DNA from: Rhodospirillales bacterium
Lineage (GTDB): Bacteria > Pseudomonadota > Alphaproteobacteria > Rhodospirillales > JASLQF01
NCBI GenBank assembly: GCA_030744625.1
Contig: JASLQF010000027.1
Location: forward strand, 62,001 to 126,000
Reading direction: 5' to 3'
DNA length: 64,000 nt
Of this stretch, positions 21,841 through 46,797 are shown in pieces. Numbering within the stretch: the first letter of the stretch is position 1; each line of letters starts with the position of its first letter. The position numbers and the translations under genes are program-made. The notes below the pieces were generated by a model. That model was not told where the DNA came from, searched no databases, and saw nothing but the letters and a program-made list of their open reading frames with translations.

Positions 21841-22428
21841 TCAGTCGAAATCCCCGGCCAGCGCCTGGCGCACGGCTTCCGGCAATACGGTCATGTGGGC
21901 GTAATTGGGGTGACCGATGGCGAGCACGACGCGGGTGCCGGAAACGGCTAATTTCCGCGCCTGATCGTCGGCGAAGGGAAAGTGGAGGAAGTGCACCGAA
22001 GATGCCTTGCCGGCAGCGCTGGTGCGCTCGACGTCGGCCTCGGCGATGGCGCGGATGGTCTCGCCGTCGAACTCCAGGCTCACCGTTTCCTCGACGCCGC
22101 CGAGTGCGGCCAGCAGATGGGCGCGACGCGCCGGGTCGTCGACCTCGACCATGAGCGTGGCGACCAGCTCGCGGCCCCCGGGGATGAGCGGATTGTAAGC
22201 CGCCAGCTCGCCCGGAATCTGGTCGTCCCCGCCCTTTTCGATGTAGAGCATCTCGTGGATCTGGTGCCACATGGTCTCGTAGCACTCGAAGTAGAAGGTG
22301 GCGTCGGGGCCGACGGCGACGCGGCGGTTGCGCTTGAGCTCGGTGATGGCGTGCCGGCGCTCCTTGCGCACCTTCGCATAGTCCTCCAGAGGCATGATGT
22401 CGGCGGCGGTGATTTCGTGTTTTCCCAT
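21841..22428 (-). CDS. DUF3501 family protein
   Basis: MGKHEITAADIMPLEDYAKVRKERRHAITELKRNRRVAVGPDATFYFECYETMWHQIHEMLYIEKGG...; adjacent to an Fe-S oxidoreductase and rubrerythrin. Confidence 0.8.
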   Translation of the reverse strand: MGKHEITAADIMPLEDYAKVRKERRHAITELKRNRRVAVGPDATFYFECYETMWHQIHEMLYIEKGGDDQIPGELAAYNPLIPGGRELVATLMVEVDDPARRAHLLAALGGVEETVSLEFDGETIRAIAEADVERTSAAGKASSVHFLHFPFADDQARKLAVSGTRVVLAIGHPNYAHMTVLPEAVRQALAGDFD

Positions 22429-22460
22429 CGTCCTTGGCTCCGTGTTCGTTACACGTTTCG

Positions 22461-23798
22461 TCACAGGCCGTACGCTCTGGCCATCAGCTCGACGGGGTGG
22501 ACGGCGTGGTGCAGGCGCCCGGTGTCCTCGCCGAGACGCTCCAGTCCCTGCACCATGTGCTGGCGCGCCAGCGGGCATTCGGAGACCAGGTAGGCGTTGC
22601 CGGCTTCGGCCGCCGACTTGGCCACCGGGCGCCCCACCTTGAGGGCGACCTCGAAATTGTCCTTCATCACCCCCCACGACCCGCCGTGGCCCGAGCAGCG
22701 CTCGATCACCGTGAGCTTGGTGTCGGGCAGGAGACGCAGCATCTCGGCCGCCTTCCGCCCCATGTTCTGGGCCCGGGCGTGGCAGGCGATGTGGACCGTC
22801 ACGCCGCCGTCGAGGGCCGACATGCCGTCGGCCAGGCCTTCGTTCCTGGCGATGTCGACCACGTATTCGGCGATGTCGCGGGTCGCCCCGCCGAGGCGCC
22901 CGACGTCCGCGTTGTCGGGCACGATGAGCGGCCATTCGAACTTCAGCATGAGGCTGCAAGAAGGGACCAGGGAAACCACGTCGTAGCCCTTGTCGATCCA
23001 TCCCACCAACTCGGCGGCGACCCTGGCGGCGGCGGCGGCGGCGGCGGCGAGATCGCCATTCTCGAACTGCGGCATGGCGCAGCACGCCGGGTGGACCACC
23101 TCGGTCTCAACGCCGTTGTGGGCGAGCACGGCGCGCCCCGCCAAACCGATGTCCGGGCTGTTGTAGTTGGCGAAACAAGTGGCGTAGATCACCGCCTTGC
23201 GCCCGAAGGCGGGGGCCTCGCGGTTGACGGCGGGCGCCCCGGCGGCGGCGCGCGCCACCAGGGTGCGGGAGTGGTAGCACGGTAGCTCGGCGTCCCGGTG
23301 CACTCCGGCCACCCCTTCCAGCACCGGCCGGGTGAGGGCGTTGGAGCGCTTCGATGCCCAGTTCACCGGCCCCGGCACGGCGCACCCGAGGCGGCCGTTG
23401 CGGTCGGTCTTGGTGAGCTGGCGCACGGCGACCCCGATCTTTCCCTGGCGCGCCTCGAGAGCCCGGTAGCGCACCATGAGATGGGGGAAGTCCAGGTCGA
23501 ACTCGTGAGGCGGCACGTAGGGACACTTGGTCATGAAGCACATGTCACACAGGGTGCAGGCGTCGGCGACGGCCTTGAAGGCGGCGCTCGGCACCGAGTC
23601 GAGCTCGCCGGTCTCGGATCCGTCGATGACGTCGAACAGGCGCGGGAAGCTGTCGCACAGGTTGAAGCAACGCCGGCAGCCGTGGCAGATGTCGAACACG
23701 CGGCGCAGCTCGGCATCGAGGTCTTCGGCGTCGTAGTAGGCGGCGTCACGCCAAGGAATGGGGCGGCGCTCGGGGGCCTCCAGGCTACCTTCGCCCAT
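22461..23798 (-). CDS. Fe-S oxidoreductase, HdrD/GlpC-like (two 4Fe-4S plus cysteine-rich domains)
   Basis: [62 protein letters not shown]. Confidence 0.85.
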
Positions 23799-23952: not shown

Positions 23953-24372
23953 TCAGTCGAGGGTGTCGAGGGCCTTCTGGAAACGGCCGGCGTGCGACTT
24001 CTCGGCCTTGGCCAGGGTCTCGAACCAATCGGCGATCTCGTCGAAACCCTCCTCGCGGGCCGACTTGGCCATGCCCGGGTACATGTCGGTGTACTCGTGA
24101 GTCTCGCCGGCGATGGCCGCCTTGAGGTTGTCGGCGGTGCCGCCAATGGGCTCGCCGGTGGCCGGATCGCCGACCTCTTCCAGGTACTCCAAGTGGCCGT
24201 GAGCGTGGCCGGTTTCGCCCTCGGCGGTCGAGCGGAAGACGGTGGAAACGTCGTTGTAGCCCTCGACGTCCGCCTTCTGCGCGAAATACAGGTAGCGGCG
24301 GTTGGCCTGTGATTCGCCGGCGAACGCATCCTTCAGGTTTTGTTCGGTCTTGGTTCCCTTCAACGCGGGCAT
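23953..24372 (-). CDS. Rubrerythrin (ferritin-like diiron domain only, no rubredoxin domain)
   Basis: [61 protein letters not shown]...[21 protein letters not shown]; no CxxC pairs. Start trimmed to MPALKG. Confidence 0.93.
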
Positions 24373-24455: not shown

Positions 24456-24508
24456 CCTCTAATATACGACCCAGTGGCACCTGAGTCAATAAATTAGAGG
24501 CATTCTAA
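24456..24508 (-). promoter_or_regulatory. Predicted rubrerythrin promoter with Irr/Fur-box-like inverted repeats
   Basis: Minus strand TTGACT-N17-TATATT (24461-24489), bracketed by CCTCTAAT..ATTAGAGG (24456-24463/24493-24500) and preceded by TTAGA-N5-TCTAA (24494-24508). Confidence 0.6.
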
Positions 24509-24543
24509 ACATCCGTGGATCATACTGAAATGACGAGTGCTGG

Positions 24544-24963
24544 TCAAGGTGATTCTGTCACCCTGACGATCACGTCGACGCGCTTGACCGAAGTTCCCTC
24601 GGGCGCCTCGGGGAGTTCCGATACGATGATCTGGTCGCCGGGAATGTCGTCGAGGCGCCCCGTTTCCTCGACGAAGAAATGATGATGCTCGCTGGTGTTG
24701 GTGTCGAAATAGGAGCGCGATGCATCGACGATGATCTCGCGCAACAGGCCGGCCGTCGTGAACTGATGGAGCGTGTTGTAGACCGTGGCCAGGGAAACGC
24801 GAATGTTGGCGCGCAAAGCCTCGGCGTGCAGCACCTCGGCGGTAATGTGCCTGTTTCCCCCCTCGAACAGGAGCTTGGCGAGCGCCAGGCGCTGTCGCGT
24901 GGGACGCAGGCCGACGGCGCGCAATTGGTCCAAAACGTGGCTAAAGGGTCTCACGGCATTCAT
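24544..24963 (-). CDS. irr: Fur-family transcriptional regulator, Irr-like
   Basis: LDQLRAVGLRPTRQRLALAKLLFEGGNRHITAEVLHAEAL..SLATVYNTLHQFTTAGLLREI..SEHHHFFVEETGRLDDIPGDQI. Start trimmed to MNAVRPFSHVL. Confidence 0.85.
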   Translation of the reverse strand: MNAVRPFSHVLDQLRAVGLRPTRQRLALAKLLFEGGNRHITAEVLHAEALRANIRVSLATVYNTLHQFTTAGLLREIIVDASRSYFDTNTSEHHHFFVEETGRLDDIPGDQIIVSELPEAPEGTSVKRVDVIVRVTESP

Positions 24964-25165
24964 ATCCCTGGCAATTGGTCCGGTCTCGCCGAAGGCTCGT
25001 AAGGTGGTACTCACGGCCTTCGATTTAAAATAATTATAATAAGTCCCATGGTAAATCCCATGGCCGCATATAACAATAAATAATTTATGGTTATGTGATC
25101 GCCCACCACGTCCCGCATAACCGGCCTGACGCCGTCGGGAGTTCGGCACGCTCGAGGGGTGTGGG

Positions 25166-46356: not shown

Positions 46357-46797
46357 TCAATCCTTTTTATCTTCCTTTTCCTTGTCCTCGAGGGGAACTG
46401 CGTAGAGTTCCAGCCGGTGCCCGACCAGCCTGAATCCGAGATCCTTGGCGATTCGCTTCTGCAGGCCCTCGATCTCCTTGTTCTGGAATTCTGTGACCCG
46501 CCCCGATTGGATGTCGATCAGATGGTCATGGTGCTCGTCCGTGACCTCCTCGTAACGGGCGCGGCCATCTCCGAAGTCGTGTCTTTCCAGGATGTCCGCC
46601 GCCTCGAAAAGACGGACCGTCCGATAAACGGTGGCGATGCTGATGCGCGGGTCCATTCGGGTGGCGCGCCGGTAGACTTCCTCGACATCCGGATGGTCTT
46701 CGGCTTCCGAAAGGACGCGGGCGATGATCCGGCGCTGGCCGGTCATCTTCATGCCCTTGCGGATGCATAACTCTTCGATTCGCGATGGCGACGCCAT
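46357..46797 (-). CDS. fur: Fur-family ferric uptake regulator
   Basis: KMTGQRRIIARVLSEAEDHPDVEEVYRRATRMDPRISIATVYRTVRLFEAADILERHDFGDGRARYEEVTDEHHDHLID. Confidence 0.9.
   Translation of the reverse strand: MASPSRIEELCIRKGMKMTGQRRIIARVLSEAEDHPDVEEVYRRATRMDPRISIATVYRTVRLFEAADILERHDFGDGRARYEEVTDEHHDHLIDIQSGRVTEFQNKEIEGLQKRIAKDLGFRLVGHRLELYAVPLEDKEKEDKKD

Follow-up and report, generated by a model that had tools for sequence, protein, structure and literature searches.

The locus described here places a rubrerythrin gene next to a gene resembling irr, and it raises the question of whether Irr controls the rubrerythrin promoter directly and, if so, from which site and with what effect. In the window (the whole stretch of 64,000 nucleotides that was analysed), the genes fabA-fabB-fabI-irr-rbr-RFO-DUF3501 follow one another on a single strand. 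The last three of these, all read from the minus strand, are rbr (23953 to 24372), which encodes a 139-aa 'aerobic-type' rubrerythrin without a rubredoxin domain (Pfam PF02915), RFO (22461 to 23798), whose product was recognized by domain search as an Fe-S oxidoreductase with CCG domains, and a gene for a DUF3501 protein (21841 to 22443; PF12007). A single-domain rubrerythrin together with RFO and DUF3501 makes up the published aerobic-type rubrerythrin cluster, RBR-RFO-DUF3501, which resembles the present genes both in its three members and in the absence of a rubredoxin domain (PMC5114695), and the three genes are presumably co-transcribed. The text of that report contained no match for Irr, regulation, promoter or binding site, and in the literature that we searched, which left most subscription papers and RegPrecise outside, a link between Irr or its operator (the Irr box, or ICE) and the rubrerythrin cluster is undescribed. 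Irr, ICEs and the aerobic-type cluster are each already known.

On the minus strand, the region upstream of rbr reads TTTAGAATGCCTCTAAT-tta-TTGACT-N17-TATATTAGAGGG. The promoter proposed in the first-pass annotation, TTGACT-N17-TATATT, was found with all of its elements in place: a predicted -35 TTGACT at 24484 to 24489 and, after a 17-bp spacer, a predicted -10 TATATT at 24461 to 24466. Close to this promoter, and ending 3 bp before the -35, lies a dyad of the TTTAGAA..TTCTAAA type at 24493 to 24509 (minus strand), TTTAGAA-TGC-CTCTAAT, which we take as the predicted Irr box; it agrees with TTTAGAANNNTTCTAAA at 12/14 positions, its right half-site being imperfect (CTCTAAT vs TTCTAAA). Within it, TTAGAATGCCTCTAA is a perfect copy of the dyad TTAGA-N5-TCTAA, as had been claimed, and pattern searches of the 3.2 Mb assembly, from which all of our genome-wide site counts derive, returned this copy only; the same site was also the sole genome match to TTAGAA-N3-TTCTAA with at most 1 mismatch. 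When the 171-bp intergenic region was dinucleotide-shuffled, 0.04% of the shuffles gave a match of at least 12/14 to the ICE consensus, and a dyad of that quality with the present -35 geometry arose in 0 of 5000 shuffles.

The gene at 24544 to 24963 (minus strand) ends 34 bp from the dyad, in agreement with the irr-like gene that had been placed about 35 bp away, and by its profile scores it is a true irr (iron response regulator, IrrA type). Its product scored 216.7 bits against NF045678 (IrrA; cut-off 150) and 198.2 bits against NF045677 (cut-off 170), far above the Fur and PerR models, the next model after those for Irr being PerRB at 68.7. Residues 93-95 read HHH, an instance of the HXH heme-binding motif of Irr (PMC7762939). 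A search of the whole protein for CP showed the Cys-Pro heme regulatory motif to be absent. That motif is a mark of the Bradyrhizobium subtype, membership in Irr does not depend on it, and the protein, since it lacks the motif, stands nearer to the R. leguminosarum type. An AT-rich, ICE-like sequence, ATTATAATTATTTTAAA, occupies 25024 to 25040 (minus strand), upstream of irr by about 77 bp; the match is weak, and autoregulation of irr through it is possible. We looked for an irr autoregulatory site consistent across the relatives and found none. Some relatives (L089, L053, L064 and L038) have a clear ICE at the corresponding place, which suggests irr autoregulation in some lineages.

We compared the rbr promoter with those of the best 80 rubrerythrin relatives and of 29 same-order loci, which together gave 74 non-redundant irr-linked intergenic regions; irr adjoined rbr in 29/29 of the same-order loci. 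Of the 74 relatives, 73 had a TTGAC with space for an ICE before it, and the start of TTAGA preceded TTGAC by 19-22 bp in 51 of 76 pairs from these loci, spacings of 19, 20, 21 and 22 bp accounting for 24, 15, 8 and 4 pairs, respectively. A -35-anchored site matching at least 11/14 positions, 2-6 bp before TTGAC, occurred in 57/73 irr-linked loci. At a threshold of at least 9/14 the count was 69/73, a figure that is lenient on its own because each relative's site was chosen as the best match beside TTGAC; the weight rests on the spacing peak and on the 11/14 count. By these measures the site is conserved at orthologous promoters. The -10 of the relatives was mostly CATATT or CATAGT at 17-bp spacing, and the nearest relative (L003/L085, with rbr 96% identical) has kept the TTAGAA half alone. 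A PWM built from the relatives' sites, in place of the RegPrecise Irr PWM, gave the ICE of the window a score of 22.3, at the 22nd percentile, with 78% of the relatives' sites scoring higher. This PWM, which assumes a GC-rich background, overrates AT-rich DNA and puts the sequence at 25024 to 25040 over the ICE at 24493 to 24509, so we relied on consensus counts and conservation.

The association of the site with Irr was examined in 241 alphaproteobacterial genomes, drawn evenly across the class. Rubrerythrin of this type was present in 123 of them, and in 103 of the 123 its gene was immediately preceded, in the same orientation, by irr; 27 of the 40 linked promoters that were fetched had a site of at least 11/14. 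Five of these linked loci, those with divergent rubrerythrins (L188-L192; 58-69% identical), had promoters without an ICE (0/5). Where rbr lay away from irr, 19 promoters were readable, and the site was found in 9/9 when Irr was encoded elsewhere in the genome vs 2/10 when it was not (Fisher p = 0.0007), a grouping that is post hoc, having been redrawn once the outcome of a first grouping was known, with the genomes G258, G161 and G189 (Irr-like matches, E 1e-31 to 1e-32) moved. Under the first grouping, among the matches listed, linked and no-Irr promoters were compared with Fisher p = 0.10 and a rank test p = 0.03. One rubrerythrin gene (L156, genome G251) has a 14/14 ICE upstream, yet no Irr was found in that genome, possibly through an assembly gap. 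Because the site is conserved, irr and rbr are linked, and the site follows the presence of Irr, direct control of the rbr promoter by Irr is well supported, and the central proposal of the first-pass annotation is upheld in this respect, with Irr most probably the regulator.

Other readings of the same DNA have to be set against these observations. AT-rich stretches are often found upstream of -35 elements, and the dyad might be incidental to such a promoter upstream element, with no regulator involved; but the TTAGAA/TTCTAA columns are near-invariant (T3, A6 and T12 in 69/69 selected sites) and the site is associated with Irr, and we find this reading hardly credible. Control by a Fur, Mur or PerR-like repressor is extremely unlikely, even though a Fur/Mur paralogue is encoded at 46357 to 46797 and the dyad agrees with the PerR box at 10/14 positions (shuffle P 0.03), a match that the ICE match exceeds. 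A Fur-type box, the GATAATGATAATCATTATC-like 19-mer, reached 10/19 at the promoter (shuffle P 0.81) and a Mur-type box 8/13, neither exceeding what shuffled sequence gives, and Fur, which had been offered as an alternative to Irr, is disfavored on that account. Moreover, presence of the site follows Irr, whereas a Fur-like match persists in about half of the genomes without Irr.

The first-pass annotation had also described inverted arms at both ends of the promoter and had suggested looping or double-site occlusion between them. The 8-bp arms are present, CCTCTAAT at 24493-24500 and ATTAGAGG at 24456-24463 (minus strand), exactly complementary and with 29 bp between, and the rubrerythrin promoter of a small-genome relative (L183) carries two complete ICEs, the first before the -35 and the second within the spacer. 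As a signal, however, the arms are weak. Inverted repeats of 8 bp whose loop did not exceed 45 bp turned up in 5% of shuffled intergenic regions (0.75% when shuffling was limited to the 53-bp site); the left arm coincides with the dyad's own right half, and the right arm, a half-site over the -10, is unconserved and probably due to chance. ATTAGAG stood at the -10 in 0/73 relatives, and any TTAGA or TCTAA near the -10 in 4/73. A span of 29 bp is also insufficient for DNA to form a loop. With one full dyad and a lineage-specific half-site, a two-site arrangement is very unlikely, and this part of the earlier proposal is set aside.

We think it likely that a single Irr operator, flush with the -35 of rbr-RFO-DUF3501, allows the product of the upstream irr to repress the operon when iron or heme is scarce. 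Under such conditions apo-Irr would occupy the dyad, whose centre is near -48, and would hinder RNA polymerase at the near-consensus promoter, so that the di-iron peroxidase and its Fe-S partner would not be made; heme, or peroxide that disables Irr, would cause binding to be lost and the operon to be expressed. Alternatively, Irr bound at the same site might activate by touching sigma region 4 or the alpha subunit, with rbr going up in low iron. The site does lie upstream of the -35, at a nearly fixed distance, in most alphaproteobacterial relatives. Against activation, the -35 is near consensus throughout the relatives, and near-consensus -35 sequences are seldom found at activator-dependent promoters; induction of an iron enzyme by iron scarcity is also less expected. 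Repression appears likelier because in some relatives, such as L151 and L182, the ICE lies over the -10 or inside the spacer, which is a blocking position; L183, with its two sites, and the precedents ccpA, mbfA and bfr point the same way. According to a review, the location of an ICE decides whether Irr activates or represses (PMC7762939), and rbr of Pelagibacter was up 1.57-fold under iron limitation (PMC2864753), both of which speak for activation. On balance, we regard activation as rather unlikely and repression, in our judgement, as distinctly the likelier sign.

The remaining ICE-like sites of the genome were also considered. Five of the other weak matches (L115-L122) were read for flanking ORFs, and no clear iron gene was seen beside them. 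One of these weak, ICE-like matches, CTATAACTATTCTAA (L121, near position 1407), has an hflK-like gene on one side and a divergent Mrp/ApbC-like gene on the other and was left out of the count. In the relatives, ICE-like sites showed no excess over a reversed control, so whole-genome counts of weak sites are uninformative on the regulon.

A comparable palindrome, TTTAGA-N5-TCTAAA, was found upstream of the rubrerythrin operon in 13 gamma-type loci (L016, L023, L028, L030, L034, L039, L045, L046, L048, L061, L065, L071 and L077). It has the form TTTAGA(C/A)NNN(G/T)TCTAAA and is mostly centred near +10: in 11 of the 12 loci with TTGAC in the stretch, a copy was centred 44-49 bp past the start of TTGAC, and in L045 it was at 34. 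L048 and L071 have a further copy in the spacer, and the palindrome also occurs near the Irr-like gene (L124, L126 and L130). Of 14 gamma genomes, 9 encode an Irr-like Fur protein, scoring 105-131 bits, under the Irr cut-off. We tentatively suggest, as a reading with less than an even chance of being correct, that one regulator family acts on the rubrerythrin operon in both Alpha- and Gammaproteobacteria from an operator at two fixed places, directly against the upstream side of the -35 in most alphas and at about +10 in gammas, which have an unassigned Irr-like protein and TTTAGAC-N3-GTCTAAA, and that Irr in the present genome is dedicated to a single operon and is not global. If so, Irr may act locally here, on one peroxide-defence operon, and the alpha and gamma operator positions would allow the effect of position on the sign of Irr to be tested. 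For the widespread rubrerythrin operon itself, the present analysis supplies a likely regulator and an exact candidate operator.

Among described Irr systems, ccpA of Rhodobacter sphaeroides is similar in that a peroxidase gene is preceded by an Irr box, which lies some 40 nt before the start site, and differs in that the gene encodes a cytochrome c peroxidase instead of belonging to a rubrerythrin operon; Irr binds the ccpA box in vitro with a low measured affinity, and ccpA is up when irr is mutated and iron is limiting (PMC3413700). The mbfA (blr7895) and bfr genes of Bradyrhizobium japonicum also resemble rbr, having ICE dyads that control iron and peroxide proteins, and MbfA is rubrerythrin-like (PMC4902296, PMC3413700). 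Unlike rbr, mbfA encodes a membrane iron exporter, and in mbfA and bfr the position of the box agrees with repression at the start site (PMC4902296, PMC3413700), the start of R. sphaeroides mbfA being inside the Irr box (PMC3413700). Both mbfA and bfr are repressed by Irr in Bradyrhizobium (PMC4902296), the same sign of control that we favor for rbr.
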